A stretch of 41,326 bases of DNA from a virus, in the IMG/VR virus record IMGVR_UViG_3300027985_000861, positions 1-41,326 of that record. One strand, written 5' to 3'. Positions 7,383 through 41,326 of the stretch are shown piece by piece. A program made the translations under genes and the position numbers. Each line of letters starts with the position of its first letter. Within the stretch, counting starts at the first letter, position 1. The notes beneath the pieces were generated by a model, which was not told where the DNA came from, searched no databases, and saw only the letters and a list, made by a program, of their open reading frames with translations.

Positions 7383-7398
7383 TAATTCCAAAATACGG

Positions 7399-7845: not shown

Positions 7846-7856
7846 CTTACACCTCC

Positions 7857-23242: not shown

Positions 23243-23337
23243 CCCTAACGGTTTGGCTAAGTTTAGTAGCCTGACCACTGACTTTGAAATTTTGATATTA
23301 ACCAAACACAGGCTATTAAATTTAGCCTGTGTTATAA
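23243..23337 (+). repeat. attC-like site a1 (left edge of array 1)
   Basis: AA core AAC 23247-23249, arm 23255-23273 pairs with 23309-23327 (19 bp, two G:T pairs at arm positions 7 and 12), core GTT 23331. The loop is 35 nt and empty. This is the most canonical site by length. Confidence 0.8.
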
Positions 23338-23347
23338 AACGTTTTTT

Positions 23348-23524
23348 ATGGCACACGGGGAAAATGCTGAAAAGTACGGAAATAAAGCAGGTAAAGAATG
23401 GTGGGGGAAACGACCACTTAGTAATACAAACGTAAGTAGAAATAAAGGCATGAAACTATGGAAACGACTATTACATAAAATTGAGCGGAGGGAAGGAAAG
23501 AAACAAGCGCAAAATGTTTTATAA
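23348..23524 (+). CDS. Cassette gene 1.1: small basic protein
   Basis: 58 residues, MAHGENAEKYGNKAGKEWWGKRPL, rich in Lys, Arg and Trp. The whole gene lies inside the cassette whose ends are GTTATAAAACGTTTT and its inverted copy AAAATGTTTTATAAC, and its TAA stop is part of the downstream AAC core. No family with known function is recognised; small basic proteins of this kind could bind nucleic acid. Confidence 0.6.
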   Translation: MAHGENAEKYGNKAGKEWWGKRPLSNTNVSRNKGMKLWKRLLHKIERREGKKQAQNVL

Positions 23525-23799
23525 CGGGCTGCGTGTTTGTGTAGGCTGTTGCCCGAATACCAATAAAGTTGAAACGAGTTACAAACGATTAAACAACAGA
23601 GCGATGGAAGAATTTTTAAATGAACTACTAACCTTCATTGATAAAAAAACAGATTGGAAGGTTAACAATGACACTACTAACTCTCAAGTCATAACTGAAT
23701 TTCTTTATAGAAATAAAGAATTAACTGCCCAATTTATTGCGAGCGTCGGCAAGACGTCCGAAACGAGCGAAAACAGCTTACATAAACACGATGTTAGCT
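23519..23799 (+). repeat. attC-like site a2, enclosing a gene start
   Basis: AAC 23523-23525; arm GTGTTTGTGTAGGCTGTT (23533-23550) pairs with AACAGCTTACATAAACAC (23773-23790), the only mismatches being two G:T; GTT 23793. The loop (about 220 nt) holds the first half of the 23604 gene, whose frame continues through the second arm as LHKHDV. Confidence 0.75.
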
Positions 23800-23975
23800 T
23801 TAGCGAAGCGGTTATATGCCCAGATTGCCATAAATACAAGAGAATGCAGGGAAATGGTATTATGCACCAACTATATGAATATGGTAGCGAAGCGGAGGTT
23901 TGCGATGGTTGCGGAGAAACAAAGATTCTACGCTCCGAAAACTTATGCCAGGAATGCTGGGATAAACTTCCATAG
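23604..23975 (+). CDS. Cassette gene 1.2: chimeric-looking protein with zinc ribbon
   Basis: 123 residues from the ATG in GAGCGATGG. Residues 1-60, encoded inside the hairpin loop of site a2, are a helical charged domain ending SLHKHDV. Residues 63-123, encoded in the next cassette, carry three Cys pairs (CPDCHKY, CDGCGE, CQECW), a probable zinc ribbon. The recombination core GTT lies at the join. Whether the two halves were shuffled together is inference, supported by the same LHKHxV join in two other genes. Confidence 0.6.
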   Translation: MEEFLNELLTFIDKKTDWKVNNDTTNSQVITEFLYRNKELTAQFIASVGKTSETSENSLHKHDVSFSEAVICPDCHKYKRMQGNGIMHQLYEYGSEAEVCDGCGETKILRSENLCQECWDKLP

Positions 23976-23984
23976 CAAACTTAA

Positions 23985-24116
23985 AGCTAACGGCAACTTG
24001 TTTGTTGTCGTTGCGGATTTAGAAGAGCGTCAGCGTCCGACAGGACGTGACGGTCGAAAAAGAAGCAAGACAACGCATAGCATTAACACCGCAATGCAAT
24101 AAACAAAATGTTAGCA
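23985..24116 (+). repeat. attC-like site a3
   Basis: AAC 23989-23991; arm 23998-24016 pairs with 24090-24107 with one bulged T and two G:T pairs; GTT 24110. The loop contains an extra small hairpin, CGTCCGACAGGACG. Confidence 0.75.
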
Positions 24117-24142
24117 AACGGCTTTTATTAAGTATTAAAATC

Positions 24143-24361
24143 ATGACAGATAAAGAATTACAAAAATTAATGGATGACACTTACAAGGCTTGTGTTCACC
24201 ATAAAAGACTTCTCGAAGAATTAGAAGAAGAATATGAAAAGAGATTTGGATTTGACCCTTCAAGTGTAGATGATGACTTTTTCATTGATACATTTCATTA
24301 TGGAAGTGGTAGTAGGGTTACGGTTAAACAAATGGCTAAAAATGCTCTATTGCATTCTTAG
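24143..24361 (+). CDS. Cassette gene 1.3: small helical protein
   Basis: 72 residues, MTDKELQKLMDDTYKACVHHKRL, an acidic coiled-coil-prone N-terminus, then DPSSVDDDFFIDTFHYGSG. It lies wholly inside a cassette with ends GTTAGCAAACGGC and GCTGTTTGCTAAC. Unknown family. Confidence 0.6.
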   Translation: MTDKELQKLMDDTYKACVHHKRLLEELEEEYEKRFGFDPSSVDDDFFIDTFHYGSGSRVTVKQMAKNALLHS

Positions 24362-24370
24362 CTGTTTGCT

Positions 24371-24373
24371 AAC
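24371..24373 (+). repeat. Unpaired left core of a degenerate attC-like site (a4)
   Basis: AAC followed by GCGTATGTTTTCGG (24379-24392), which can pair in part with CCGAATACGC at 24966-24975. No GTT core follows the second arm, so the right half appears lost. The toxin-antitoxin-like pair lies in what would be its loop. Confidence 0.4.
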
Positions 24374-24463
24374 GGTTAGCGTATGTTTTCGGTGTTTCCA
24401 GCGACCTTGCTATGAAAAACAGTCCTAAAAAAATAAAAAAAAGCGAGGGTTTTTTGATTTATT

Positions 24464-24511
24464 TTGTCCAAATATTTGGATAAGTTAATTATTGTCCGTA
24501 AATTTGGACAA
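24464..24511 (+). promoter_or_regulatory. Tandem palindromic operators
   Basis: TCCAAATATTTGGA (24467-24480, perfect palindrome) and TTGTCC-N8-GGACAA (24492-24511) lie directly before the 24530 gene. The shared half-site TTGTCC suggests one repressor bound twice, most simply the helix-turn-helix protein encoded by the second gene. Confidence 0.6.
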
Positions 24512-24529
24512 ACATTAATACTTAAAGAT

Positions 24530-24778
24530 ATGCAATACGTTAAAACAATCAAAAACGAACAAGGTACTTACAACATTCAAGTAAGTATGTGGATTAATTC
24601 TTCAAGTTGGGAAACTGACGGCAATGGTAATCAATTTAGATATGATGTGTTTGTTGAGTTTATCCCAAAAGGAAAAAGAAAAGCATTGTTTGGAAATTTC
24701 ATTGAAGAAGTTAGAAACATTGATATTCAGCGAGCAAAGTTAGAATTTTGGGAACTATTAAAACCAAAAGCAGAATGA
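24530..24778 (+). CDS. First gene of a two-gene, operator-controlled unit (possible toxin)
   Basis: 82 residues from ATG 24530, chosen because the upstream in-frame region overlaps the operators. The sequence (YNIQVSMWINSSSWETDGNGNQF then FVEFIPKGKRKALFGNF) is beta-rich and of no family I can name. Its TGA overlaps the next ATG (ATGA). Size, overlap with a DNA-binding partner and operator placement suggest toxin-antitoxin or a similar autoregulated pair, unproven. Confidence 0.55.
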   Translation: MQYVKTIKNEQGTYNIQVSMWINSSSWETDGNGNQFRYDVFVEFIPKGKRKALFGNFIEEVRNIDIQRAKLEFWELLKPKAE

Positions 24779-24942
24779 TTGATTGGATACGCAAAAACAA
24801 AAAGTTTCTAAGTATTAGGGCAATTGAGCAAGAAATCGGTTGCCCTACTGATACGTTACAGAAATTTGTAAACTGTAGAAATCTTCCTGAAAAGTGGATT
24901 GAACCACTGGAAAAATTCATAAAGGCTTTGAAAAAGCCTTAG
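24775..24942 (+). CDS. Small helix-turn-helix protein (possible antitoxin/repressor)
   Basis: 55 residues, MIDWIRKNKKFLSIRAIEQEIG then CPTDTLQKFVNCRNLPEKW, the pattern of a compact HTH (recognition helix about residues 24-34). It overlaps the upstream gene by 4 bases and is followed at once by a terminator. Likely binds the operators at 24464-24511. Confidence 0.6.
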   Translation: MIDWIRKNKKFLSIRAIEQEIGCPTDTLQKFVNCRNLPEKWIEPLEKFIKALKKP

Positions 24943-24963
24943 TGCGATGGCTTTTTATTTTTT
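24931..24963 (+). terminator. Rho-independent terminator
   Basis: AAAAAGCC (24931-24938) and GGCTTTTT (24949-24956), then a T-run. It closes the 24530-24942 unit; the stop codon lies in the hairpin. Confidence 0.75.
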
Positions 24964-25009
24964 GTCCGAATACGCACGAACTATCAAGCGAGCGATTAAC
25001 CCCGCTTGC

Positions 25010-25137
25010 ATACAACGTTAAATGTTTGTGCAGTTGGGGATTAAAGCCACTGCACTGTCAAAATAATATAAACTTAATAAAATGATATAATGATGAACAA
25101 CGTAGAAAACCCCAATTGCATAAACATATTGTTATAT
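25010..25137 (+). repeat. attC-like site a5, enclosing a gene start
   Basis: AAC 25014-25016; arm ATGTTTGTGCAGTTGGGG (25022-25039) pairs with CCCCAATTGCATAAACAT (25110-25127), differing only by two G:T; GTT 25131. The ATG at 25090 is in the loop and the frame runs through arm and core. Confidence 0.8.
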
Positions 25138-25401
25138 GATGGGCTTGCTTGGAAACATCACATTGCTGAACATTTTGAAAACGGTACTTGTCCTATTCAT
25201 CCAAATGGGGCTGGAAAAGGAGCTACAATATTCACTAATTATCAAAAAATGATTGACTATCTAAAAAAAGATGGCAGACGTTGGTATGTTGCTGAATTAA
25301 AGCTTAAAAATGAACCTTTAATATTTGAGTTTGGTAATGATTATATGGCTACTATTCAAAGAGATTGTCTTTCGGAGCGGGGGTTTAAGCCTTGCATATA
25401 A
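25090..25401 (+). CDS. Cassette gene 1.4: unknown protein reading through an attC-like site
   Basis: 103 residues. The first 14 (MMNNVENPNCINIL) are encoded within site a5; the rest, LYDGLAWKHHIAEHFENGTCPIHPNGAGKG onward in part, within the cassette. The GAGKGATIF stretch is not a proper P-loop. The end (ERGFKPCI) is read from the cassette's 3' terminus, with TAA in the next core. Function unknown. Confidence 0.6.
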   Translation: MMNNVENPNCINILLYDGLAWKHHIAEHFENGTCPIHPNGAGKGATIFTNYQKMIDYLKKDGRRWYVAELKLKNEPLIFEFGNDYMATIQRDCLSERGFKPCI

Positions 25402-25486
25402 CGATGGTAATAAGAAACGTGGCAATTGCACCACGTTTCAAGTTTTTACTGTCGTTTCTTGCCATGTTTTTTATTACGTGTTATGC
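25396..25486 (+). repeat. attC-like site a6
   Basis: AAC 25400-25402; arm 25407-25425 pairs with 25459-25477 (19 bp with two G:T); GTT 25480, giving GTTATGC. The 33-nt loop is empty apart from a second partial copy of the arm. Compact and canonical. Confidence 0.82.
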
Positions 25487-25581
25487 ACTGGCGTTTAACC
25501 ACTTACCTAAATTTGAAACACGGACGTAATAATTATTTTTTAGGGAAGGCAAAAATATTTTAAAAATAAACAACAAAATAG

Positions 25582-25612
25582 TTGCACATGTAATACAAAT
25601 GATTTATACTTG
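25582..25612 (+). promoter_or_regulatory. Cassette-borne promoter 1
   Basis: TTGC (25582-25585), 19 nt, TATACTTG (25605-25612), close to the Bacteroidota consensus. The interval is nearly identical to that at 38477-38507, so both cassettes carry the same promoter module. Confidence 0.6.
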
Positions 25613-25642
25613 TAGAGTATTAATCATTAAAAATTTAGCAAA

Positions 25643-25993
25643 ATGACAAATTCAGAATTAAACAAACTGTCAATCTCAGAACTTAGAGATTTAAGAAACA
25701 GAGTAACCGAAATGTTATCTCTAAAAATGCAAATAGAAGGTAAAATAAATGCAGACTCTTTGCGTATTGGAATGACTGTAAAATACATTGGTGGAACTAA
25801 TAAAATTAAAGATGAAAAATTTAAAGTTCTTAAAATTAACAAAGTTAATGCCCAATGCAAGAGTTATTCGACAGGTATTACATGGAATATTAAATTAGCC
25901 AATATTGAACCATGTGAAGATTCAGAAACAGAAATGCCAGAAAAAATAGTTGGCTATAAAGAATATGAAGCAGAAGGAAGAGGTGAAAGATAA
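25643..25993 (+). CDS. Cassette gene 1.5: small protein with own promoter
   Basis: 116 residues: helical N-terminus (MTNSELNKLSISELRDLRNRVTEML, in part) then a barrel-like region (IGMTVKYIGGTNKIKDEKFKVLKIN) and an acidic end. The layout, helix pair then SH3/KOW-like barrel, recalls the 5379 product. It is the only array 1 gene with a clear promoter of its own and is followed by a terminator. Confidence 0.65.
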   Translation: MTNSELNKLSISELRDLRNRVTEMLSLKMQIEGKINADSLRIGMTVKYIGGTNKIKDEKFKVLKINKVNAQCKSYSTGITWNIKLANIEPCEDSETEMPEKIVGYKEYEAEGRGER

Positions 25994-26027
25994 GTCTGCC
26001 AGTTTCCGCTAAATTCTGGCGGATTTC

Positions 26028-26057
26028 AGCCCTGTATCTTTCGAGTGCAGGGCTTTT
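26028..26057 (+). terminator. Terminator between 25643 gene and the ribbon-helix-helix gene
   Basis: AGCCCTG (26028-26034) and CAGGGCT (26048-26054), then TTTT. It lies 22 bases before the next ATG, so it may work as an attenuator for that gene. Confidence 0.7.
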
Positions 26058-26078
26058 GGTAGTAAAAAGATATAAATT

Positions 26079-26240
26079 ATGGCAAAGACAGCAATATTAA
26101 ATTTAAGGGTAAAACCAGAATTGAAAGAACAGTTAATTAAACTGGCAGAAGAAGATAAACGCTCACTAAATACTAAGTGTGAGATGATGCTTGAATCCCA
26201 AATTGCTTTGGAAAAGCAAAAGCGGGTGGGCAAAAAATAA
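26079..26240 (+). CDS. Ribbon-helix-helix protein, copy 1
   Basis: 53 residues. ILNLRVKPELKEQLIKLAEEDKRS then a second helix (CEMMLESQIALEKQK) is the Arc/CopG ribbon-helix-helix layout, a dimeric DNA-binding fold found in antitoxins and repressors. The last 15 residues (QIALEKQKRVGKK) are almost the same as in the 38911 product, as is the DNA. Preceded at 22 bases by a terminator. Confidence 0.7.
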   Translation: MAKTAILNLRVKPELKEQLIKLAEEDKRSLNTKCEMMLESQIALEKQKRVGKK

Positions 26241-26294
26241 TTATGGCAAGTTTGCACAGGCGTTTAATTGAAATACTGCACTTCTTACGCTTGT

Positions 26295-26427
26295 GTATAA
26301 CGGCTGGCGGTATGATTAGTAGCCGATTACGAAGATATTAACTTTCAAAATTAGATAAACTATGATACGAGATGAAAACTTACAAACTGGCACTAACTCG
26401 GCTATTAATTATGACCGCATGTTATCG
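26295..26427 (+). repeat. attC-like site a7, enclosing a gene start
   Basis: AAC 26299-26301; arm 26307-26325 pairs with 26399-26418 with one bulge and two G:T; GTT 26421. The ATG at 26362 is in the loop; a second ATG (26419) overlaps the GTT core itself. Confidence 0.75.
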
Positions 26428-26646
26428 CCAGTTGTTTTAGAAGCAATTCAAAATGATGCTCAAATAAAAGCATTGAATCAAAGGATGAATGACTTATATA
26501 AGTATTCAACACCTAAATATGTGATGCAAACAAATGGTGAAATAAATGCTGTTAATTCAAAGGAGTTTGACGAAGCAGTTGCAAAAATAGTTGAACAAAT
26601 AGAGTTACGCCAACAACAGATTATGTCTGCCTACAATTGGCGATAA
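26362..26646 (+). CDS. Cassette gene 1.6: small helical protein
   Basis: 94 residues if started at 26362, with the first 19 encoded inside site a7; 75 if started at 26419, where ATG merges with the recombination core. Residues 20-94 are helical and Gln-rich (VEQIELRQQQIMSAYNW). The cassette ends are GTTATCGCCAGTTGT and ACAATTGGCGATAAC. Function unknown. Confidence 0.6.
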   Translation: MIRDENLQTGTNSAINYDRMLSPVVLEAIQNDAQIKALNQRMNDLYKYSTPKYVMQTNGEINAVNSKEFDEAVAKIVEQIELRQQQIMSAYNWR

Positions 26647-26735
26647 CGTTGAACGTATGTGCTGTGCAGCCTTGCACGTACTTTCAACATACAAATACAG
26701 TTTATTGGCTGCATAGCATATACGCATTGTTGTGC
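26641..26735 (+). repeat. attC-like site a8
   Basis: AAC 26645-26647; arm CGTATGTGCTGTGCAGCC (26654-26671) pairs with GGCTGCATAGCATATACG (26707-26724) with two G:T; GTT 26729. Loop 35 nt, no gene. Confidence 0.82.
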
Positions 26736-26758
26736 GTAGTGCTTTAATAATCAAAGCA

Positions 26759-26968
26759 ATGACAAATGCAGAACAAACTATAATTGATGCACTGAAATTA
26801 CAATGGGAGTCCGATTGGATAATTTCAGCAACTAAAAATGATAAAATTAATGCAATAGCATTCTCAATCCACATAGATACCACTTATGTAGATTGCGGTA
26901 ATGTAGAAATAAGCGAAATTACATTAGATGGAACTTGGTTAAGACTATCTGGGTGGTATCGTCTTTAG
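26759..26968 (+). CDS. Cassette gene 1.7: small protein, unknown
   Basis: 69 residues, MTNAEQTIIDALKLQWESDWIIS, a helix then beta strands (AIAFSIHIDTTYVDCGNVEISEITL). It lies in a cassette with ends GTTGTGCGTAGTGCT and AGCATTACGCACAAC; the next cassette shares those ends and part of the leader (AATAATCAAARCAATGACAA). Confidence 0.6.
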   Translation: MTNAEQTIIDALKLQWESDWIISATKNDKINAIAFSIHIDTTYVDCGNVEISEITLDGTWLRLSGWYRL

Positions 26969-26974
26969 CATTAC

Positions 26975-27106
26975 GCACAACGGTGGCAATATAAAATCGT
27001 GCTGGATTACGAATCACGAAACTATCAAACCGCTACAAACATTAATACGATATAAAATATTTAACAACCGCACGAAGCCCAGCATGTTTTATATTGCGTG
27101 TTGTGC
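26975..27106 (+). repeat. attC-like site a9
   Basis: AAC 26979-26981; arm 26986-27005 (20 nt) pairs with 27079-27097 (19 nt), with one bulged T and a single G:T; GTT 27100. This is the one paired site lacking the first of the two G:T positions. Confidence 0.78.
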
Positions 27107-27128
27107 GTAGTGTTCAATAATCAAAACA

Positions 27129-27359
27129 ATGACAATAGACGAAACAAATTTATTGCACAAAAAAGCCGAAACACGAAAAGATGGTGTGTATTCATTTAGA
27201 GGAAACTTATGGGTAGTAAAGAATAATAAATTTGTGGCTTTTGCTGATTACTTTGGCAACTGTTATCAAAGATTTGGCTCATTTAATGCTTCTATTGGCA
27301 AGGTAGAACGATACGACAGAAAGCAAAAGCTAACTGAATGGTTACGTGCGCAGTCTTAG
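27129..27359 (+). CDS. Cassette gene 1.8: small protein, unknown
   Basis: 76 residues, MTIDETNLLHKKAETRKDGVYSFRG, then FRGNLWVVKNNKFVAFADYFGNCYQRFG, a small beta sheet with a basic C-terminus (KVERYDRKQKLTEWL). Reminiscent of short phage cargo proteins but no family named. Wholly inside the last complete cassette of array 1. Confidence 0.6.
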   Translation: MTIDETNLLHKKAETRKDGVYSFRGNLWVVKNNKFVAFADYFGNCYQRFGSFNASIGKVERYDRKQKLTEWLRAQS

Positions 27360-27369
27360 CATTACGCAC

Positions 27370-27433
27370 AACTATGTTGTATATACACCAAAACTATTAA
27401 CAATGACTGATTTTCAAGACATTAAAGTTTATA
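27370..27433 (+). repeat. 64-bp direct repeat at the right edge of array 1
   Basis: Identical to 39199-39262 at the right edge of array 2. The identity starts exactly with an AAC core. It includes the start of the 27403 gene. No matching arm and GTT follow, so it may be a terminal or truncated site. Confidence 0.9.
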
Positions 27434-27672
27434 AATTTGGTTTTATTTTTAATGGTGTAACTTTTTGTTGGTTTAATAAAAACTTGTATAGAATGCCATA
27501 TCAAAAAGAATTACGCTTTTATGAAAAAAGAAAATTAAAAATGCAAAAAGTAGGAAATAGTATTGGATACTGGATTTGTGGTATTTTTAAATCTATGAAA
27601 AATTTAAAACAGATAACAAACGAAATTAATTATAAAGAAGTTATATTAGTAGACCATGGCCTTCCTTTTTAA
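27403..27672 (+). CDS. Gene at the end of array 1, unknown
   Basis: 89 residues, MTDFQDIKVYKFGFIFNGVTFCW, basic and aromatic, with a hydrophobic segment (SIGYWICGIF). The first ten codons are duplicated at 39232, where the gene is cut short. ATG 27403 is chosen because the duplicate keeps it and the upstream in-frame region belongs to the previous cassette. Function unknown. Confidence 0.6.
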   Translation: MTDFQDIKVYKFGFIFNGVTFCWFNKNLYRMPYQKELRFYEKRKLKMQKVGNSIGYWICGIFKSMKNLKQITNEINYKEVILVDHGLPF

Positions 27673-33727: not shown

Positions 33728-33765
33728 TTTCGTGCTTTATTATTAAACTATAAAAACTAAATTAT

Positions 33766-34068
33766 ATGTCAGAATTTAACGAAAACCAGTTCAAAAAAGA
33801 TACTCCCGTAGTTCCATTTTCAAATGGTTCGGAGTTTGAAAGCTGGCACCACAACAACTGCGACGCTTGTGTTAACTACGACGATGAAAGTGAAAATGAA
33901 GAAAAGGCAAAATGCAAACTTGCTTTTCATCTGGATTTTGGGATGATATCGGGTATTATTCCGCTTTGGGTAGCAAAGGAAATTGGCTGCAAATACAACC
34001 CGCTTTACCAAAGTTGCAAGCTGAGTTCAGAATGTACTAAACTGCGCAAAGGCGATGAGCCTTTTTAG
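33766..34068 (+). CDS. Cassette gene 2.1: cysteine-rich protein
   Basis: 100 residues with five Cys (CDACVNYDDE, KCKLAF, GCKYN, SCKLSSEC) that may bind metal or an iron-sulfur centre, an acidic middle and a hydrophobic stretch (ISGIIPLWVAKEIG). First gene of array 2. I know similar short Cys proteins from phages but no function. Confidence 0.65.
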   Translation: MSEFNENQFKKDTPVVPFSNGSEFESWHHNNCDACVNYDDESENEEKAKCKLAFHLDFGMISGIIPLWVAKEIGCKYNPLYQSCKLSSECTKLRKGDEPF

Positions 34069-34073
34069 CGTGG

Positions 34074-34609
34074 CGGTAACGGTTGGTGTTAGTTGTCGTT
34101 GCGTGAAATTTGCACTGACTTATCATTGAAAAACAAATAAAAAAGCGAAGGGAAGGGCTTTAAACCGACCCATAAATTAAATACTAATTTACATCATGGA
34201 AGAAAAACAAATTAAGTTTGAAACATGGGCAATTGTTGAGTTATTTGGACATAACCAACTTTCTGGAAAAGTGACAACTGAAACAATTGCCGGGCAGGAG
34301 TTTGTAAGAATTGACGTTCCAAAAACCACAAAAGTTCCTGCATTTACAAAGTATCATTTACCAAGTGCCGTTTATGGATTAACCCCGGTTGACGAAGATT
34401 ATGCAACCAGGATGGCTGACAGGATAAATGCACAGCCAATTAATGATTACAAACACAACGAGGTGATTTCTGAAATCATTAAAGAAAAGCTATCCCAAAT
34501 GAGTACCAACATGCTCGAATTTTAGGCGGGTGGGGCTTTTTTATTCTTTGCATCCGCAGAAAGTTCATTTGAAAAGCTGACAAGCAATGCAATTAACACT
34601 TTGTTACCG
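34074..34609 (+). repeat. attC-like site b1 with a whole gene in the loop
   Basis: AAC 34078-34080; arm 34086-34102 pairs with about 34584-34599 (two G:T and a bulged T); GTT 34603. The loop of nearly 480 nt contains the complete 34196 gene. Confidence 0.7.
34196..34525 (+). CDS. Cassette gene 2.2: conserved phage-type hypothetical
   Basis: 109 residues. IKFETWAIVELFGHNQLSGKV, RIDVPKTTKVPAFTKYH and PSAVYGLTPVDED form a pattern I associate with a small protein common in phages of many hosts, without known function. It sits entirely inside the loop of site b1. Confidence 0.65.
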   Translation: MEEKQIKFETWAIVELFGHNQLSGKVTTETIAGQEFVRIDVPKTTKVPAFTKYHLPSAVYGLTPVDEDYATRMADRINAQPINDYKHNEVISEIIKEKLSQMSTNMLEF

Positions 34610-34684
34610 TGCGTATTTCCCAATTTTGGAAGCGTAACGGTTTCAAAATGTTGGTTGCTTTGCTTAGATAATATGCACGGTAAC
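34603..34684 (+). repeat. Gene-less mini-cassette, copy 1
   Basis: 82 bp with ends GTTACCGTGCGTAT and ATATGCACGGTAAC, and an inner stem TTTTGGAA/TTTCAAAA. No ORF. Near-identical copies are at 37593 and 39121. Confidence 0.85.
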
Positions 34685-34759
34685 GATAACTTGTATGTGG
34701 CGTTTAAAACTGCCGATGATGCGAGAACTAAAATTAATTATTAAACTAAATAGTGAGCG

Positions 34760-35053
34760 ATGGGTAAAAAAATAAGTAGCTATAAAGATGCTGACGGCAA
34801 TATGGGATTCCATTTCCATTGCCCTGCATGTGGACATGCGCACGGTGTATTTACAAGTGGAAACGAGAAGCAAGTACCGATATGGAAATGGAATGGCGAT
34901 GAAGAAAAACCGACATTTTCACCTTCAATTAATTGTGTAAACAAGCAGCTTAATACTAAATGCCATTCTTTTGTTGAAAATGGTAATATAAGGTTTTTGA
35001 GCGATTGCACACACAATATGAAGGGAACAACAGTTGAATTACCTGACTTTTGA
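34760..35053 (+). CDS. Cassette gene 2.3: DUF6527-type protein
   Basis: 97 residues. HFHCPACGHAHGV, WKWNGDEEKPTFSPS and CHSFVENGNIRFLSDCTHNM are the successive blocks of the DUF6527 family, a small probable metal-binding protein common in phages and mobile elements. Function unknown. The ATG lies in the recurring context GAGCGATGG. The upstream AAC core (34682) has no paired GTT that I can find, so the cassette boundary is unclear. Confidence 0.75.
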   Translation: MGKKISSYKDADGNMGFHFHCPACGHAHGVFTSGNEKQVPIWKWNGDEEKPTFSPSINCVNKQLNTKCHSFVENGNIRFLSDCTHNMKGTTVELPDF

Positions 35054-35068
35054 GCGTTGGGTAATGTT

Positions 35069-35347
35069 TTATAACGGTGGGTGTTTGTGTAGTGCGTTAA
35101 ATCCGCACTGAATTTAAAACGAGTAATTAACTTTTAAAATACTAAGTAATGAACGAAATTGAAATGATAAACTTATTGGGGAAATTACAGGATATACGAG
35201 ATGATATTTATATACTCGGAAATGTTAAAACGGCAAAAACAAATTTGGAAAATATAATTAAAGAACTAAACTTAAAAATTGAAGAAATAAAAGTGAATGG
35301 TATTGATAACAGCCAAGACAAAGCATTACATAAACACTGTGTTAACG
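35069..35347 (+). repeat. attC-like site b3, enclosing a gene start
   Basis: AAC 35073-35075; arm GTGTTTGTGTAGTGC (35081-35095) pairs with GCATTACATAAACAC (35323-35337) with two G:T; GTT 35341. The loop encodes the first 58 residues of the 35149 gene. Confidence 0.78.
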
Positions 35348-35490
35348 GCAGTGCTTACTTCGTTGATACAGAAAAAGGTGCAATTTGCGTAATTGCTGAA
35401 AACATTTACGGCGTGTTTGAAAAATGCCATAAAGCAGGATACAAGAAAGTTGAAATGATAAAAGCGGCAAGTTTTGATATACTCGAATAG
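35149..35490 (+). CDS. Cassette gene 2.4: protein joined across an attC-like site
   Basis: 113 residues. Residues 1-60 are a coiled-coil-like helix pair encoded in the loop; LHKHCV marks the arm and core; residues 65-113 (GSAYFVDTEKGAICVIAENIYGVFEK in part) are a separate compact alpha/beta unit encoded in the next cassette. The cassette ends GTTAACGGCAGTGCT and AGCATTGCCGTTAAC flank only the C-terminal part. Function unknown. Confidence 0.6.
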   Translation: MNEIEMINLLGKLQDIRDDIYILGNVKTAKTNLENIIKELNLKIEEIKVNGIDNSQDKALHKHCVNGSAYFVDTEKGAICVIAENIYGVFEKCHKAGYKKVEMIKAASFDILE

Positions 35491-35496
35491 CATTGC

Positions 35497-35786
35497 CGTT
35501 AACGGTTGGTGTTTGTGCTGACCGCTTTATCAAATTACTACTGCATTAAATACGAGTTATAAAACTATAAATTACCGAGCGATGGGATTACAACTTAACA
35601 AAGAAGCATACAAAGTTCTGTTAATAGACAAGGACATTGAACTTTTGGAAAAATACTTTCCGGCTTCATCATTAGAAAAACAACACATTATTGATGTACT
35701 AAATTGGAGTGTAGAACAACTTTATCCGAGTATGTTGGAAAAAAGTTCGGACGAGAACAGCGGTTTGCATAAACACGTTGTTACCG
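35497..35786 (+). repeat. attC-like site b4, enclosing a gene start
   Basis: AAC 35501-35503; arm GTGTTTGTGCTGACCGCT (35509-35526) pairs with AGCGGTTTGCATAAACAC (35759-35776), two G:T and one T:T; GTT 35780. Confidence 0.75.
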
Positions 35787-35935
35787 CTATGTTGCCTTTT
35801 CTTGAAGAAATGAGCAAGCACGAGAATGAACAACTTGGTAAACTATTGACACCTTATAGCCGAGAAAAACACGCAAATAATAAATACTGCATTGCAATTG
35901 TAAAAGAGCTTATTGAAAGCAGATTTGGCAATTAG
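35582..35935 (+). CDS. Cassette gene 2.5: helical protein joined across an attC-like site
   Basis: 117 residues, nearly all helical. Residues 1-63 come from the hairpin loop and end GLHKHV; residues 65-117 (AMLPFLEEMSKHENEQLGKLL) from the cassette with ends GTTACCGCTA and TTAGCGGTAAC. Third case of the LHKHxV join. No known family. Confidence 0.6.
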   Translation: MGLQLNKEAYKVLLIDKDIELLEKYFPASSLEKQHIIDVLNWSVEQLYPSMLEKSSDENSGLHKHVVTAMLPFLEEMSKHENEQLGKLLTPYSREKHANNKYCIAIVKELIESRFGN

Positions 35936-36063
35936 CGGTAACGTTGGGGTATGAAATGTAGCGGTTTACTGGCTGATACCATATCACACGATAAGAAACT
36001 AAAAGCGAAGCAGAAAGATTGCACAACCACTGCACCCGCTATATTTTATACCCGTTGTTATGC
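35936..36063 (+). repeat. attC-like site b5
   Basis: AAC 35940-35942; arm 35947-35964 pairs with 36036-36053 (18 bp, two G:T); GTT 36057 giving GTTATGC. Loop 71 nt without a gene. Confidence 0.8.
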
Positions 36064-36098
36064 ACAGTAAATTATTAATAATTAAACACATAAATAAA

Positions 36099-36401
36099 AT
36101 GATTGGATTTACTTTACCTTGGATTTATGCACACTTAATCGGTGATTATTTAATTCAAAACGATTGGATGGCATTGAACAAAAAGAAAAATAGTTGGATT
36201 TGCTTGGTACATGTTTTAACGTATATGATTCCTTTCTTATTCACAAGTATAAACCCACTTGGCTTGTTTTTAATAGCAGCACAGCATTACATACCGGTGG
36301 GGCTATGTGCTTGTGGCGGATTTCGGGCAGATTTTCTGTCGGAACGACAAAGAAAATCAAGCGAGAGCCGACACTCACAAAAAGCACATACACCGCCATA
36401 G
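36099..36401 (+). CDS. Cassette gene 2.6: truncated DUF3307-like membrane protein
   Basis: 100 residues. WIYAHLIGDYLIQNDWMALNKKK and CLVHVLTYMIPFLF fit the start of DUF3307 membrane proteins (HLxGDFLxQxDWMAxNK). The expected continuation after AAQHYI is replaced by sequence read from site b6 (PVGLCACGGF onward), so the protein is cut by the cassette end. The hydrophobic N-terminal half could still insert in the membrane. Confidence 0.6.
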   Translation: MIGFTLPWIYAHLIGDYLIQNDWMALNKKKNSWICLVHVLTYMIPFLFTSINPLGLFLIAAQHYIPVGLCACGGFRADFLSERQRKSSESRHSQKAHTPP

Positions 36402-36420
36402 CATATAGCTGGTGTTAGCG
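36289..36420 (+). repeat. attC-like site b6, core altered to ACC
   Basis: The left core reads ACC (36293-36295) instead of AAC. Arm 36302-36319 pairs with 36393-36409, one bulged T and two G:T; GTT 36414. The first G:T is still 12 nt from the core. Confidence 0.7.
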
Positions 36421-36458
36421 TTTCGGTTTTTTATTTAATCATTCAAAATATTCAAATT

Positions 36459-36872
36459 ATGCCAATAGATTATAAAAAATATCCTAAAAATTGGAAGTCA
36501 GAAATAAGACCTGCAATTCTTAAACGTGCAAATAATTGCTGTGAATTTTGCGGTGTCAAAAATCACTACTTCGGGTTTCGTGGTAATGATGGCAATTTTT
36601 ATAATGATAATTTTATTCATCAACAATTAGAACTTCACGGAATAGATATGTTTGATGAATATATATCCGATGATGCAAAACACTTTCAAATAGTACTTAC
36701 AGTTGCACATTTAGACCACGATACATCAAATAATGATTTTTCAAATTTGAAAGCATTATGTCAAAAATGCCACTTAAATTATGACAAAGAACATCACGCT
36801 AAAAACAGGCGTAAAACTATAAATTCAAAAAAACAACTCGTTGAGCTTCCGTTTCCTGAAACTGAACGCTAA
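36459..36872 (+). CDS. Cassette gene 2.7: HNH endonuclease
   Basis: 137 residues. Zinc pairs CCEFCG (about residues 24-28) and LCQKCH (about 108-113) frame the HNH core HLDHDTSNNDFSNLKAL with catalytic His/Asp, and HHAKNRR follows. A stand-alone HNH nuclease as cassette cargo. The cassette ends are GTTAGCGTT and AACGCTAAC; the TAA stop lies in the AAC core. Confidence 0.85.
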   Translation: MPIDYKKYPKNWKSEIRPAILKRANNCCEFCGVKNHYFGFRGNDGNFYNDNFIHQQLELHGIDMFDEYISDDAKHFQIVLTVAHLDHDTSNNDFSNLKALCQKCHLNYDKEHHAKNRRKTINSKKQLVELPFPETER

Positions 36873-37175
36873 CGGTTGGTGTTTGTGGAGGCTGTTGCCT
36901 CAAATTGTGATAAAGTTGAAACGAGTAAATAACAATTAAATCCGAAGCGATGGAGAATGTTAAAAAATTCCTGAACGAAATTAATGATGGTTATGAATTT
37001 TTTTATGTTGAAAAAGACGGGAAATACTTTATTATAAAATTCGATTCTTTTATGGTTACAGACCAGAAATATGCACAAAAAATTTGCAACGAACTTAATG
37101 GAATGTTGAAAAAAGCGCGGGCAGGCAAGCCCAAAACTACGAGATAAAACAGCTTACATAAACACATTGTTATAA
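36867..37175 (+). repeat. attC-like site b7 with a whole gene in the loop
   Basis: AAC 36871-36873; arm GTGTTTGTGGAGGCTGTT (36879-36896) pairs with AACAGCTTACATAAACAC (37148-37165), two G:T and one G:T-adjacent G/T mismatch; GTT 37169. The right arm equals that of site a2. Confidence 0.75.
36950..37147 (+). CDS. Cassette gene 2.8: small protein within a hairpin loop
   Basis: 65 residues, MENVKKFLNEINDGYEFFYVEKDGKYFIIKF in part, small alpha/beta with basic end (KKARAGKPKTTR). It starts in the recurrent AGCGATGG context and stops one base before the right arm of site b7. Unknown function. Confidence 0.55.
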   Translation: MENVKKFLNEINDGYEFFYVEKDGKYFIIKFDSFMVTDQKYAQKICNELNGMLKKARAGKPKTTR

Positions 37176-37235
37176 ACTGGCCGTTATTCTTCGGTTTCAG
37201 TTTACGCAATCCCTGTTTTACGGCTTGTTTATAAC
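37169..37235 (+). repeat. Gene-less mini-cassette, different family
   Basis: 67 bp with ends GTTATAAACTGGCCGT and ACGGCTTGTTTATAAC, no ORF. It is unrelated in sequence to the three GTTACCG mini-cassettes. Confidence 0.75.
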
Positions 37236-37599
37236 GGTTTGCGCAAGTTGGCGTTGCTGCCAGAAAGTTTATTTGAAATACTAATGTAATAATTATTTTT
37301 TAGGGAGGGAATAAACATGAATTTTTATAGTAAACCATACATATCAATTGGAGGATACAAATGTAGAATGTGGTATCACTTCTCAATTAACTTGATGTTT
37401 AAAAAGAAATATTATCCAGATGGATATTTAGGATATAAGCCTGATTATTATGACGGGTGGTTTCATAGATTTTGCATATATCCAATTAGGATAGATTGGC
37501 ACAAGAGACCTGAATTGTGTGATGGCAAATAATTATGGGCTATTATGCAGTAACGTAACTTTGAAAAACTAATGCAATGCAATTTGCGCTTTGTTACCG
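37229..37599 (+). repeat. attC-like site b8 with a whole gene in the loop
   Basis: AAC 37233-37235; arm GCGCAAGTTGGCGTTGC (37241-37257) pairs with GCAATGCAATTTGCGC (37574-37589), one bulged G and two G:T; GTT 37593. Confidence 0.75.
37317..37532 (+). CDS. Cassette gene 2.9: small aromatic-rich protein
   Basis: 71 residues, very rich in Tyr, Trp and Phe (MWYHFSINLMFKKKYYPDGYLGY, in part). It is preceded by GTAATAATTATTTTTTAGGG, a leader also found at 25526 ahead of the 25643 gene. It lies inside the loop of site b8. No family recognised. Confidence 0.55.
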   Translation: MNFYSKPYISIGGYKCRMWYHFSINLMFKKKYYPDGYLGYKPDYYDGWFHRFCIYPIRIDWHKRPELCDGK

Positions 37600-37673
37600 T
37601 GCGTATTTTCCAATTTTGGAAGCGGTACGGTTTCAAAATGCTAATTGCCTGCTTAAAGAATATGCACGGTAAC
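37593..37673 (+). repeat. Gene-less mini-cassette, copy 2
   Basis: 81 bp, ends GTTACCGTGCGTAT and ATATGCACGGTAAC, inner stem around GGAAGCGGTACGG. Differs from copy 1 at a handful of positions. Confidence 0.85.
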
Positions 37674-37963
37674 GGTGGTGGCATGTACAGTAAATTTAAA
37701 GACTATGAAAGACAAAGTAAAAATTTTTGGGCAAGCAATGATAAATGAGTTGCAAGCTAACGAAGGAAAAGGCAAGTGGGATAATTTGCACCCACTTTAT
37801 TTATGTGCTGAATTGCATTACCATGCTTCTAAATTATACAAAGCATGTGATGAAAACGATAAGCAAAAAATTTTGGAGTATTCCGCAGACTGTGGCAATA
37901 TAGCTATGATGATTGCAGACGTAACGACCTCTTTAAATTTATTGAATATGCCACGTGTTAGCA
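37667..37963 (+). repeat. attC-like site b9, enclosing a gene start
   Basis: AAC 37671-37673; a 24-nt arm (37678-37701) pairs with 37931-37954, two G:T and one A:A; GTT 37957. The longest arm of the set. Confidence 0.8.
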
Positions 37964-38091
37964 ATAACGAAGGGTTGGAACCGAGCGAAGGAGTGGAGTT
38001 TACTTGCAAAAACTGCGGTGGACACACAAAAATCTTTCGTAAATCAACTGGTAAATATAGCTGCGGTGATTGTGCCTTTATTTGCAAGTAA
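37705..38091 (+). CDS. Cassette gene 2.10: MazG-like helical domain joined to a zinc ribbon
   Basis: 128 residues. Residues 1-80 (WDNLHPLYLCAELHYHASKLYKA then EYSADCGNIAMMIADV) resemble all-alpha phage proteins related to nucleotide pyrophosphohydrolases, with paired acidic/His positions; this assignment is tentative. Residues 86-128, from the next cassette, are a ribbon with CKNCGGHTK and CGDCAFIC. The join lies at the GTT core (NMPRVSNN). Confidence 0.6.
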   Translation: MKDKVKIFGQAMINELQANEGKGKWDNLHPLYLCAELHYHASKLYKACDENDKQKILEYSADCGNIAMMIADVTTSLNLLNMPRVSNNEGLEPSEGVEFTCKNCGGHTKIFRKSTGKYSCGDCAFICK

Positions 38092-38096
38092 ATTAT

Positions 38097-38186
38097 TGCT
38101 AACGGACAGGTGTATGAGCCGTGCCTGTTCGGTACTATCGAATTACAACGGCTTTTAATTAGCATGGCTTATACACCATGTTATAA
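38097..38186 (+). repeat. attC-like site b10
   Basis: AAC 38101-38103; arm GGTGTATGAGCCGTGCC (38109-38125) pairs with AGCATGGCTTATACACC (38161-38177), two G:T plus a frayed end; GTT 38180. Compact, empty loop. Confidence 0.8.
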
Positions 38187-38198
38187 CCCGTTTTTATT

Positions 38199-38342
38199 AT
38201 GATTTCAGAAACATTAAAAAAGAGATTAAAAAGTAAAAGCAGAAAGTTGTTAAAGGCAGAAATAATCGATGCAATAAGTAAAATTGAAGATAAAGAAAAA
38301 TTAATAACCCTATGGTATTTAATTCGCCAAAATGGGTTATAA
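38199..38342 (+). CDS. Cassette gene 2.11: very small helical protein
   Basis: 47 residues, MISETLKKRLKSKSRKLLKAE, a basic amphipathic helix then KIEDKEKLITLWYLIRQNGL. It fills a cassette with ends GTTATAACCCGTTTT and AAAATGGGTTATAAC; the stop TAA belongs to the core. Unknown function. Confidence 0.55.
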   Translation: MISETLKKRLKSKSRKLLKAEIIDAISKIEDKEKLITLWYLIRQNGL

Positions 38343-38476
38343 CGGTTGCGGTAAGTTGCGTTATTTCCAGTGCAGCCGGATTGAAAAACTGCCGTTCACA
38401 TTCTTTTTATTTTTAGGGTGGGTTTTTAAGAATAATTCTAAATAGAAAAATAAATCAAAAATAATTAGCAAAATGC

Positions 38477-38507
38477 TTGCACGTGTAATACAAATGATAT
38501 ATCTTTG
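38477..38507 (+). promoter_or_regulatory. Cassette-borne promoter 2
   Basis: TTGC (38477-38480), 19 nt, TATCTTTG (38500-38507), a full TAnnTTTG. The spacer matches that of the 25582 promoter (GTGTAATACAAATGAT versus ATGTAATACAAATGAT). Confidence 0.65.
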
Positions 38508-38865
38508 AAGTAACAAATTAAAACAAAGTTCTTTTATAAACTGAAAATAACGAGTTAAGTTAGCCGATACTTAGCAGGGCGTGATTCACGGTTGAAATAA
38601 ACACTGTGGAACGCTAACAGAATTATGCGCTGTCTTTGATTGCGCATAACCTTTAATCGGTTAGTACAATTGGGTGTTTAACGGTGACCATTGCGAAAGC
38701 ACATCATGTTAATTAAATAAAAGATGTAAAATTATGGCATCTCTGTTGTACGAACTATTGGGTATGTGTAGTGTGCGGAAATGGCAATATTAAGGTGCTA
38801 CACAACTATGAGCCAAACAATGATGCAATTAACGCATTAATCCGACCCGGCAAAAATGAAAAACA
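38508..38865 (+). ncRNA. Candidate non-coding transcript (low certainty)
   Basis: No ORF longer than about 18 codons is seen between a good promoter and a strong terminator. The stretch can fold a perfect TTATGCGC/GCGCATAA hairpin (38625-38653) and holds several AAC/GTT-like cores. It may be a small RNA, a decayed gene, or spacer inside the b11 loop. Confidence 0.35.
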
Positions 38866-38897
38866 AAAGCCTCGTTTCGTTTGATTCGAGGCTTTTT
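38866..38897 (+). terminator. Rho-independent terminator before the second ribbon-helix-helix gene
   Basis: AAAGCCTCG (38866-38874), 12-nt loop, CGAGGCTTT (38887-38895), TT. It lies 14 bases before the 38911 ATG, like the terminator at 26028 before the first copy. Confidence 0.8.
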
Positions 38898-38910
38898 AGT
38901 AAATTTTATT

Positions 38911-39093
38911 ATGGCAAAAGTACAATTACCATTAAGAGTTGATGAAGAAATTAAATCAGATTTGATTAGTTTATCTACCGAAGAAAACCGTTCAGTTAAC
39001 AACTACGTTGAAACAGTTCTTCAAAATCATATTGCTTTGGAAAAGCAAAAGCGGGTCGGCAAAAATAAAAAGAATACCACTGCCGATGATTAG
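38911..39093 (+). CDS. Ribbon-helix-helix protein, copy 2
   Basis: 60 residues. VQLPLRVDEEIKSDLISLSTEENRS and NYVETVLQNHIALEKQK give the strand-helix-helix order of Arc/CopG proteins. It is paralogous to the 26079 product; the C-terminal 34 bp of the gene differ from that copy at one position while the rest has diverged. It would act as a dimeric DNA-binding repressor or antitoxin; no toxin is adjacent. Confidence 0.7.
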   Translation: MAKVQLPLRVDEEIKSDLISLSTEENRSVNNYVETVLQNHIALEKQKRVGKNKKNTTADD

Positions 39094-39120
39094 AACTAAG
39101 TATAATGCAATTTACCGTTT

Positions 39121-39201
39121 GTTACCGTGCGTATTTTCCAATTTTGGAAACGGTACGGTTTCAAAATACAAATTGCCTGATTAAAGAATATGCACGGTAA
39201 C
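39121..39201 (+). repeat. Gene-less mini-cassette, copy 3
   Basis: 81 bp, ends GTTACCGTGCGTAT and ATATGCACGGTAAC. Its final AAC is the first base triplet of the 64-bp repeat shared with array 1. Confidence 0.85.
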
Positions 39202-39262
39202 TATGTTGTATATACACCAAAACTATTAACAATGACTGATTTTCAAGACATTAAAGTTTATA
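39199..39262 (+). repeat. 64-bp direct repeat at the right edge of array 2
   Basis: Identical to 27370-27433. Preceded by a different cassette there, so the junction at AAC is exact in both arrays. Confidence 0.9.
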
Positions 39263-39282
39263 GATTATGTGAATTAAGTTAA
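39232..39282 (+). pseudogene. Truncated copy of the 27403 gene
   Basis: ATG followed by nine codons identical to the 27403 gene (MTDFQDIKVY), then RLCELS and a stop. It overlaps the 3' end of the convergent tail gene by 9 bases. Confidence 0.7.
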
Positions 39283-41326
39283 ATCTACATTTATAATTAT
39301 TGTTTTACTTGCTCCTCCAATTGTAGCTGAAAACGAAATTGAGTATTTACCTGAAGCATTTAAGAAATCAATCACATAATACAAATTGTCATTTACAACA
39401 GTATATGGAACTATTTCTACTGTTATTCCAAAAGCACCATCCTGTAAATAATCATAATAATAATCTCCGCCATCAGGTAATGAATCAACTGTATCACCAT
39501 TTGAAAATTCAGCTAATAATTTAGCTGAGAGTTTATCTGTAAAATTGTATTCAATTACATCAGTTGAATCGTCTTTCCATGTTGCGTCATCAACCCAAAT
39601 ACCATTGTCGTTCCATGCACCATCTTCCAAAATCCACAAAGCATTTTCCCATGCTCCGAATTCCATAAATGAACCTGAAAATATATTTGTTCTGTAATCA
39701 ATTTCACAACTCGCACAAACATATTTTTTAGGTAAAACTTGGTAATCTACAATGCAAGAATCAAACTTTATATTTTGACTTAAAATAGGCAATGTCAATT
39801 TGAATTGTGGTAATTTATAAATAGCTTCATAATCCTTACCAATTAATTCAAGTAATGAATAAGTATTTGAATCGCCTCGTTCATGCCATTCCGATGTAAC
39901 ACCGTCAGAAGTTCTATATCCGTATTCCCAAATTTTAGAATTGTTTGTTACCTCAGGCAAATCACCTCCTACAATTTCAATAGTTTCAGGAACATAAATA
40001 TTTTTTTCGTTTGTTACAATTACTGTTTCTTGGTTTTCATCATAAGCTGATTCATCTTCTTTTACAAAAACAGCAGAAAACTCTTTTAATCTCAAACGAA
40101 TATTGTTTACTGCGCCAATTAACCCACTTTCATTGCCATAAACTTTTAATTCAATATTACCGTCAGTTGGCAATCCTGGTACTGTAAATTCATAATTTTG
40201 CCATTCACCTGAAGTTTCTCCGTTTCTATTCCAACGTCCCCCAAAATAAATGGGTTGAACTCCTTCAACTTCTATATAACTTTGTGAGGTTGTCCATTCA
40301 AATTCATCATCTTCATTTAAGTTAAGGTAATAATCAGTCGTTCCATTTAATTTAATTTCAAATCTAAATCCAGCAGAAACAACGCCAGTATCATATGCTA
40401 AGATATTAAATTGAATTTTAAACAGTATTTTTTGAGATACACTTATATTAAGATATTGAATTGTTTGATTTATATATTTATTTTGGTCTTTCTCTGCAAA
40501 CTGGATAAATGAAGTTCCATCTGATTGAATATATCTTACTGCAAATCCGTAATAAGGTTCAGTCCATTTGTCAATTCTCCAACTCGTATTGCGTTCTGTA
40601 ACATGGTATTCAATCCATTCTGAAAAGTCATAATTAAGAATAAAACTTTCGTATTTTCCTAAATTTTGTAGCCATGAAAATTGCTTCCAACCTGCCAAAA
40701 TATCAAGTTGTGGCGAATTATTTACAATCTGTGAACCCGTTGGCCTTCCAATCTGGAAAGTAGTTACTTTAGTATTGTCAAGTGAAATAAAGTTTCCAAT
40801 CAAATCACTCTTTTTGACAACCATTTCAGAACTTACTTCTTTTATTCTTACAATCCACCATTCGGCATTCATCTGATACAACCTCGCCCCAAATGTCAAT
40901 AGAATATCTGAAATAGCCTCATAAAAGTTCATTCCTGAATAGGCTGAAACATTTATGTAAGTCTGCGGCAATGGTGAATCTGTTTCGTCATCATTTTCAC
41001 CCGAATAAACGTTAATGCAGTCGTTTAAATAAAGGTCTGTTTCAATCTGTCGTAATCCTTCACAAATAACAGAATACAAGTTTGCAAAAGTAACACTTGT
41101 TCCGGCCGGTTCTGATTGTGTATAAGCCTGAACAGTTTCAGGAAAATCAATCTCTTTTAATTCACCCAATCCGCACCTTGCAGTTACTTCAACGTAATAC
41201 GGTGGTGCAATGTAAGGTTCTGAAAATAGGTCAGGCAACAACCAACCAGTCCAATCAAGAACAGATTCTTTGTAAATATCTACACGGTGCGCCCTTGCAT
41301 CTGAACTGTGTAATTCTATAAATTGA
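39274..41326 (-). CDS. Tail protein, C-terminal part (starts at 359 on the circle)
   Basis: About 636 residues of the 755-residue protein before the circular junction, plus the repeated 144 bp. Domains seen: an N-terminal part with ETVQAYTQSEPAG and FYEAISDILLTFGARLYQ (residues about 130-240), a beta-sandwich region with GEWQNYEFTVPGLP typical of carbohydrate-binding-like modules (about 430-470), a Cys pair CASCEID, an aspartate/tryptophan-rich segment (WENALWILEDGAWNDNGIW), and an Ig-like end. Likely baseplate hub or tip protein that contacts the cell surface. Confidence 0.72.
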   Translation of the reverse strand, partial: QFIELHSSDARAHRVDIYKESVLDWTGWLLPDLFSEPYIAPPYYVEVTARCGLGELKEIDFPETVQAYTQSEPAGTSVTFANLYSVICEGLRQIETDLYLNDCINVYSGENDDETDSPLPQTYINVSAYSGMNFYEAISDILLTFGARLYQMNAEWWIVRIKEVSSEMVVKKSDLIGNFISLDNTKVTTFQIGRPTGSQIVNNSPQLDILAGWKQFSWLQNLGKYESFILNYDFSEWIEYHVTERNTSWRIDKWTEPYYGFAVRYIQSDGTSFIQFAEKDQNKYINQTIQYLNISVSQKILFKIQFNILAYDTGVVSAGFRFEIKLNGTTDYYLNLNEDDEFEWTTSQSYIEVEGVQPIYFGGRWNRNGETSGEWQNYEFTVPGLPTDGNIELKVYGNESGLIGAVNNIRLRLKEFSAVFVKEDESAYDENQETVIVTNEKNIYVPETIEIVGGDLPEVTNNSKIWEYGYRTSDGVTSEWHERGDSNTYSLLELIGKDYEAIYKLPQFKLTLPILSQNIKFDSCIVDYQVLPKKYVCASCEIDYRTNIFSGSFMEFGAWENALWILEDGAWNDNGIWVDDATWKDDSTDVIEYNFTDKLSAKLLAEFSNGDTVDSLPDGGDYYYDYLQDGAFGITVEIVPYTVVNDNLYYVIDFLNASGKYSISFSATIGGASKTIIINVDLT
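41183..41326. repeat. Right copy of 144-bp terminal direct repeat
   Basis: Identical to bases 1-144. On the circular map this segment exists once, inside the tail gene. Confidence 0.95.

Follow-up and report, generated by a model that had tools for sequence, protein, structure and literature searches.

Gene starts and entire genes inside attC-like hairpins of two phage cassette arrays: a probable integron-like system without its own recombinase

On the usual view, integrons mobilize complete genes that lack promoters, and the recombination site forms a 3' tail. The closest known systems to the one described here are phage clusters of attC sites lacking an integron integrase (CALINs, i.e., at least two attC sites without an integrase), such as that of the Polaribacter phage P12002L. 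In the portion of the published account that concerns this phage, one of its attC sites, possibly among those parsed here, is reported to be recombined by IntI1 (PMC9892861). The window analyzed by us is a stretch of 41,326 nucleotides (nt) comprising the whole IMG/VR virus record IMGVR_UViG_3300027985_000861 of a tailed phage. Like the array of P12002L, its two arrays of attC-like cassettes consist of small genes between imperfect hairpins with YAAC and GTTR ends, have no integrase and parse with the same model. However, unlike what that portion of the account relates of P12002L, genes in the window start in or fill the hairpin loop, open reading frames (ORFs) cross the right core, and exchange is bounded by AAC cores. 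We propose that these are probably integron-like, CALIN-type arrays without a recombinase of their own, in which each gene has its site at its 5' end.

Two further described systems bear comparison. The OTH-22-1 motif, a structured-DNA form seen in several phyla outside the annotated attC classes, was proposed as a novel form of attC (PMC8632094). As described there, it resembles the window sites in being an attC-like structure begun by RYYYAAC, and it may be the same kind of site, whereas the passage devoted to it in that source mentions no coding loop. In resistance integrons, fused cassettes and short ORFs in attC are known, and the fused cassettes likewise link translation across cassette borders; however, those fusions arise mostly via attC loss (PMC8876359), whereas in the window the site is intact and its arm serves as an in-frame linker. 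The literature searched, which covered few subscription papers, yielded no account of in-frame fusion across attC or of ORFs lying in loops, and no example of an intact site whose loop is coding and whose arm is read in frame; the novelty is provisional.

The arrays are two blocks of small plus-strand genes that interrupt the genome at 23246-27371 (array 1) and 33741-39201 (array 2); the sites and ORFs given below are on this strand. Along both, YAAC and GTTR cores alternate: the segment from a left YAAC to a right GTTR is an imperfect hairpin resembling an integron attC, while the stretch between a GTTR and the YAAC that follows, here called the body, is closed by a separate inverted repeat, about 8-16 bp long. 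Extended terminal inverted repeats on each body (8-28 bp) set these arrays apart from integron cassettes. An alternating-core parser, scoring hairpin and body repeats alike, recovered chains of 39 and 74 in array 1 and of 46 and 71 in array 2, against 18 at most in 12 random sequences of the same composition. The loops fall into length classes of 76-88, 112-122, 180-200 and 259-350 nt, with a few at 357-777 nt; the short ones are exemplified by T5 (35939-36060, loop of 114 nt), which is close to a site of P12002L, and T10 (38100-38183, 76 nt). Array 2 opens with a half-site that has a right arm and no clear left partner arm.

The sites share with integron attC a hairpin with YAAC and GTTR ends, spacers, L boxes, paired inner boxes and a 5' arm that carries extra bases. 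They differ in that the strict R box (GTTRRRY/RYYYAAC) gives way to GTTR alone (the R cores in the window being GTTATAA, GTTACCG, GTTAACG, GTTAGCA, GTTATGC and GTTGTGC), in that the array ends at an AAC core on its 3' side, and in having coding loops of up to 777 nt. Since the strict GTTRRRY box is absent and no integron integrase is present, we term the approximately 20 sites of the window attC-like.

The sequence-only reading had held that these hairpins have genuinely paired arms, and had named an accidental pairing of independent truncated sites as the competing possibility. Across 20 long-loop sites, the summed arm score of the actual partners is 253, while permuted partners have a mean of 164 (standard deviation 10) and none of 20,000 permutations reaches the observed value. 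At b1, b7 and b11, the true left arm outscores every other one of the 378 YAAC positions in the window. The arms of b1 (GTGTTAGTTG/CAATTAACAC), b8 (GCGCAAGTTG/CAATTTGCGC) and b11 (CGGTAAGTTG/CAATTTACCG) differ from each other, and each matches its own partner at 9 of 10 bases but the partners of the others at 6 of 10. Taken together, the permutations and these compensating differences exclude accidental pairing for the set, and the same architecture recurs in many contigs. What can be said for it is that b8 taken alone scores no better than five unrelated YAAC positions, and that real damage to sites is visible at T2 (34682) and T6; we regard it as a very remote explanation, and the paired-arm claim is borne out.

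In a number of these hairpins, ORFs begin within the loop and run through the right arm. The previous list of long-loop sites was incomplete by at least four, with loops of 265-283 nt, and in each of these an ORF that starts in the loop crosses the right arm with its GTT core and terminates shortly ahead of the next left core. They are S2 (23522-23796; AAC at 23523, GTT at 23793, loop of 267 nt) with an ORF of 123 amino acids at 23604-23975; T3 (35072-35344; AAC 35073, GTT 35341, loop 265 nt) with one of 113 amino acids at 35149-35490 that reads ALHKHCVNG across the arm; T4 (35500-35783; AAC 35501, GTT 35780, loop 276 nt) with one of 117 amino acids at 35582-35935 that reads NSGLHKHVVT and whose N-terminal part is homologous to the related locus L053; and T9 (37670-37960; AAC 37671, GTT 37957, loop 283 nt), which has the best arm score in the window (19.2), with an ORF at 37705-38091. 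Crossing ORFs also begin in shorter loops, as at S5 (25013-25134, loop 114 nt, ORF 25090-25401) and S7 (26298-26424, loop 119 nt, ORF 26362-26646).

To quantify this across a wider set of viral contigs, we counted an ORF as spanning when it runs from the loop through the GTT core and stops no more than 25 nt short of the AAC that follows. Such ORFs occur at 16 of the 19 sites with loops of 131-350 nt (0.20 expected), with GTT serving as a codon in all of them, and at 14 of the 28 sites with loops of 96-130 nt (0.07 expected). Their stops lie at preferred positions: at -1, where the TAAC core itself forms the TAA, in 12, and at -12 or -13 in 13. The right arm thereby encodes a linker (e.g., NSLHKHIV, NGLHKHVV or PALHKHFV). 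The left arm is upstream of the start codon and non-coding, and coding changes in the right arm track changes in the left, for instance AGGCTGTT/AACAGC (encoding NS) versus AGGCCGTT/AACGGC (NG); hence, arm pairing constrains the linker. Where relatives allow the test, the loop ORFs are under purifying selection, with ratios of non-synonymous to synonymous change (pN/pS) of 0.06 between the loci L005 and L066 and 0.34 between T4 of the window and L053. The architecture is found in other viral contigs and in cultured Polaribacter phages, and the annotated P12002L genes CDS 0059 and 0060 both span GTT cores. An AlphaFold model of the S2 ORF has a predicted local distance difference test score of 44 and was not interpreted.

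At four other sites of array 2 the loop holds a complete gene, as had been claimed from the sequence, and we located arms and loops at all of them. The b1 site (T1; 34077-34606, AAC 34078, GTT 34603, loop 522 nt) holds an ORF of 109 amino acids at 34196-34525 that matches phrog_29525 (E-value 9e-8). The b7 site (T7; 36870-37172, AAC 36871, GTT 37169, loop 295 nt) holds a gene at 36950-37147; its linker resembles that of the locus L033 but an in-frame stop precedes the right arm and the following body is gene-less, so that b7 looks like a truncated member of the core-spanning class. The b8 site (T8; 37232-37596, AAC 37233, GTT 37593, loop 357 nt) carries a gene at 37317-37532, and b11 (T11; 38340-39124, AAC 38341, GTT 39121, loop 777 nt) one at 38911-39093 that is ribbon-helix-helix-like by sequence.

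The bodies that follow these whole-gene loops are without genes, being 61 nt long after b7, 75 nt after b8 and b11 and about 80 nt after b1. Moreover, b1, b8 and b11 each precede one of three near-identical bodies of a single family (D1), at 34603-34684 (with the inverted repeat GTTACCGTGC/GCACGGTAAC), at 37593-37673 as delimited by the parser, and at 39121-39201, where it is the last body of array 2. The sequence-only reading had taken loops and bodies as two separate gene locations that double the cargo capacity. This part is not supported: units with a whole-gene loop have gene-less bodies, the classic units keep their gene in the body, and many units have one ORF that spans both, so that most units carry a single gene, whether it lies in the loop, sits in the body or crosses the core. 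The ribbon-helix-helix-like gene family is represented by a body gene of array 1 (26079) and by a loop gene of array 2 (38911); hence, loops and bodies seem to be interchangeable locations for a single gene. The suggested look at the same arms in related genomes gave an answer: T4 of the window and the locus L010 share 88 nt at 92% and 54 nt at 94% identity around unrelated interiors, whereas no such arms around an empty loop were found.

Natural variants among the related loci reveal where exchange takes place. Four combinations of modules were observed, namely N1 with C1 (L005), N1 with C2 (L066), N2 with C1 (L033) and N3 with C2 (L130). The N1 loops of L005 and L066 are alike up to ATTGTTA and unrelated beyond it, and the C2 bodies of L066 and L130, compared over the 166 nt between the GTT core and the AAC core, show 98% identity. 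The C1 body, common to L005 and L033 with different loops, begins in the shared linker and ends at the AAC core. Other exchanges have AAC at both ends: L129 and L130, from two contigs, are identical over 362 nt comprising a hairpin and its body, from AAC to AAC. L130 and L131 have bodies with unrelated flanks on both sides that switch exactly at the 3-4 nt cores. The sister phages P12002L (L109) and P12002S (L137) are 99.6% identical beside the array (region 37-41 kb), with different sets of methylase cassettes between the same two AAC cores and about 1.09 kb extra beside an AAC core in P12002S; the second junction switches exactly at the 3-4 nt core. Thus, both AAC-bounded and GTT-bounded exchanges occur, which bears on whether the right core is crossed over at G^TT. 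An AAC core belonging to a body closes the array on its 3' side in both window arrays, in L033 and in two further contigs. A test of whether BLAST alignment ends in general cluster at cores was uninformative, with a null of 0.36; therefore, the evidence on exchange is restricted to long, high-identity cases.

These variants suggest a mechanism in which the usual unit of exchange would be one hairpin with its following body, bounded by AAC cores. The hairpin would thus sit at the 5' end of its own gene, unlike the 3' position in textbook integrons, with the loop providing the leader, the start codon and often the first 60 or so codons, the right arm doubling as recombination arm and in-frame peptide linker (LHKHxV), and the body supplying the remainder of the ORF. 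If the hairpin is the 5' end of its gene, a gene start within the loop is expected rather than odd. At b1, b7, b8 and b11 the entire gene fits into the loop and the body is a short gene-less hairpin, such that a single kind of unit could have three gene placements, namely wholly in the loop, wholly in the body or across the core. Less frequently, the GTT core inside the ORF may act as the exchange point, swapping C-terminal modules in frame. The recombinase would presumably be supplied in trans, from the host or a co-infecting element.

Several observations weigh against this proposal. Single-strand folding of the top strand recovers the arm pairing at most of the long sites but not at all of them, T3 being a failure. 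In the L033 exchange group the end falls at AAC, but the switch on the left may be at any point of the shared linker, and the first junction between P12002L and P12002S switches up to about 14 nt past the AAC. There is no recombinase in the probably complete window genome, and the activity of one on these sites is presumed. The mismatches in the arms are G.T in 129 cases versus A.C in 5 (15:0 in the window and 29:2 elsewhere when recounted without credit for wobble), an excess that is strong in both kinds of stem of the window arrays and favours the coding strand, or its RNA, as the molecule that folds. The extrahelical bases, by contrast, lie mainly in the 5' arm (19 versus 6 in the window, including one probably spurious hairpin, and 11 versus 0 in the integron of Shewanella M16-3 used as a control); by analogy, this asymmetry points to the ordinary bottom-strand polarity with crossover at GTT.

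That last point is shared with an account in which the polarity is that of textbook integrons: the unit would be a body with the attC following it, the long loops would be enlarged variable terminal structures, and a crossing ORF would join the 5' part from one cassette to the 3' part from the next. It would also explain why loop-only and body-only sharing switches at GTT, and it accords with the resemblance of the sites to those of P12002L, including the reported IntI1 reaction (PMC9892861). Yet the cleanest, near-identical exchanges have AAC at both ends, the arrays stop at the AAC of a body instead of after a complete attC, and the R boxes depart from the strict GTTRRRY, due to which we consider it unlikely. 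We hold it equally improbable that the mosaics are made by homologous recombination between similar arms or leaders, with no present need for a site-specific recombinase. This is possible at the first P12002L/P12002S junction, because the switch there falls within the approximately 14 nt of similar sequence past the AAC, and replacement of loop interiors between a conserved leader and linker fits it too; but the bodies with unrelated flanks (L130/L131 and the second P12002L/P12002S junction) switch exactly at cores of 3-4 nt, and bodies retain unit-specific terminal inverted repeats. Still less probable is that the hairpins are mainly RNA structures in the coding-strand transcript, such as leader or stability elements, with recombination being incidental. 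The G.T excess is as expected of sense RNA, but equally of sense single-stranded DNA, whereas the array structure, the exchange at cores, the want of an Rfam match and the recombinase genes at array ends in two contigs all speak against it.

The latter genes encode XerA/IntI-like recombinases of 266-268 amino acids directly 3' of the array-end AAC, in the same direction as the cassettes (contig G412, locus L128, at 214-1024; locus L127 at 7389-8194). The G412 and G418 enzymes are XerA-like, scoring below the TIGR02249 cut-off with the IntI-specific segment unaligned. The window has no counterpart: a search for tyrosine recombinases (PF00589) across its genome, which is probably complete since its first and last 144 bases (1-144 and 41183-41326) form a direct terminal repeat of 100% identity, found none, in contrast to a complete integron with an IntI bearing the extra domain beside an attI. 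With the integron-integrase model, the bacterial genomes behind the loci gave partial XerC/XerA-like matches only, with no adjoining array in the DNA fetched. Of 395 genomes from the class, just 4 contain the right-arm pattern, and a host array accompanied by an integrase was thus not identified; scans with several right-arm variants gave mostly unrelated matches. Rfam at gathering and E-value thresholds had no attC-like family in the array, and the sole match of array 2 in a phage database was one of 108 nt to Flavobacterium columnare phages.

As a tentative extension, to which we give somewhat less than even credence, these arrays could belong to a reversed-polarity integron of Bacteroidota phages, with a 5' hairpin, folding of the coding strand, exchange at AAC and, in autonomous forms, a recombinase of the XerA-like kind located at the array's 3' end. 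The second core would then lie within the ORF, such that recombination would build two-module proteins via the linker encoded by the arm.

In departure from the 3'-tail arrangement, the site here is a part of the gene, with the loop carrying the start and the arm encoding a linker. Therefore, site-specific recombination could make new proteins in frame, and such fusions, if produced and useful to the phage, would constitute a prokaryotic counterpart to exon shuffling among the accessory genes of phages. A further suggestion is that such arrays are misread by gene callers and attC finders: some of the called genes would be chimeras whose modules move separately, and sites would escape the finders once their loops exceed about 150 nt.

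Both arrays end in the same 68 nt (27370-27437 and 39199-39266, 99% identity), made up of the AAC core, TATGTTGTATATACACC and the start of a small ORF (MTDFQDIKVY) whose copy is intact at array 1 and shortened at array 2; it is possibly an attI-like end. In array 2, T2 (34681-35072) has a left arm without a right arm, with a DUF6527 gene in between, and its body end ATGTTTTATAAC suggests deletion of the matching start GTTATAAAAC. At 36099-36414 a DUF3307-like gene is seemingly truncated by the degenerate site T6, which has TACC in place of TAAC as its left core. Array 1 might include an additional long-loop site, S4 (24371-25017), with a loop of about 640 nt and two small genes, whose right core overlaps the next left core (CAACGTTAAAT). 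Elsewhere in the genome, the terminase, portal and major head protein genes are on the minus strand, and a cluster of five tRNA genes lies on the plus strand near the genome start (582-1048). Finally, a direct repeat of 77 nt (3849-3925 and 4277-4353, 99% identity) is found in adjacent minus-strand genes.

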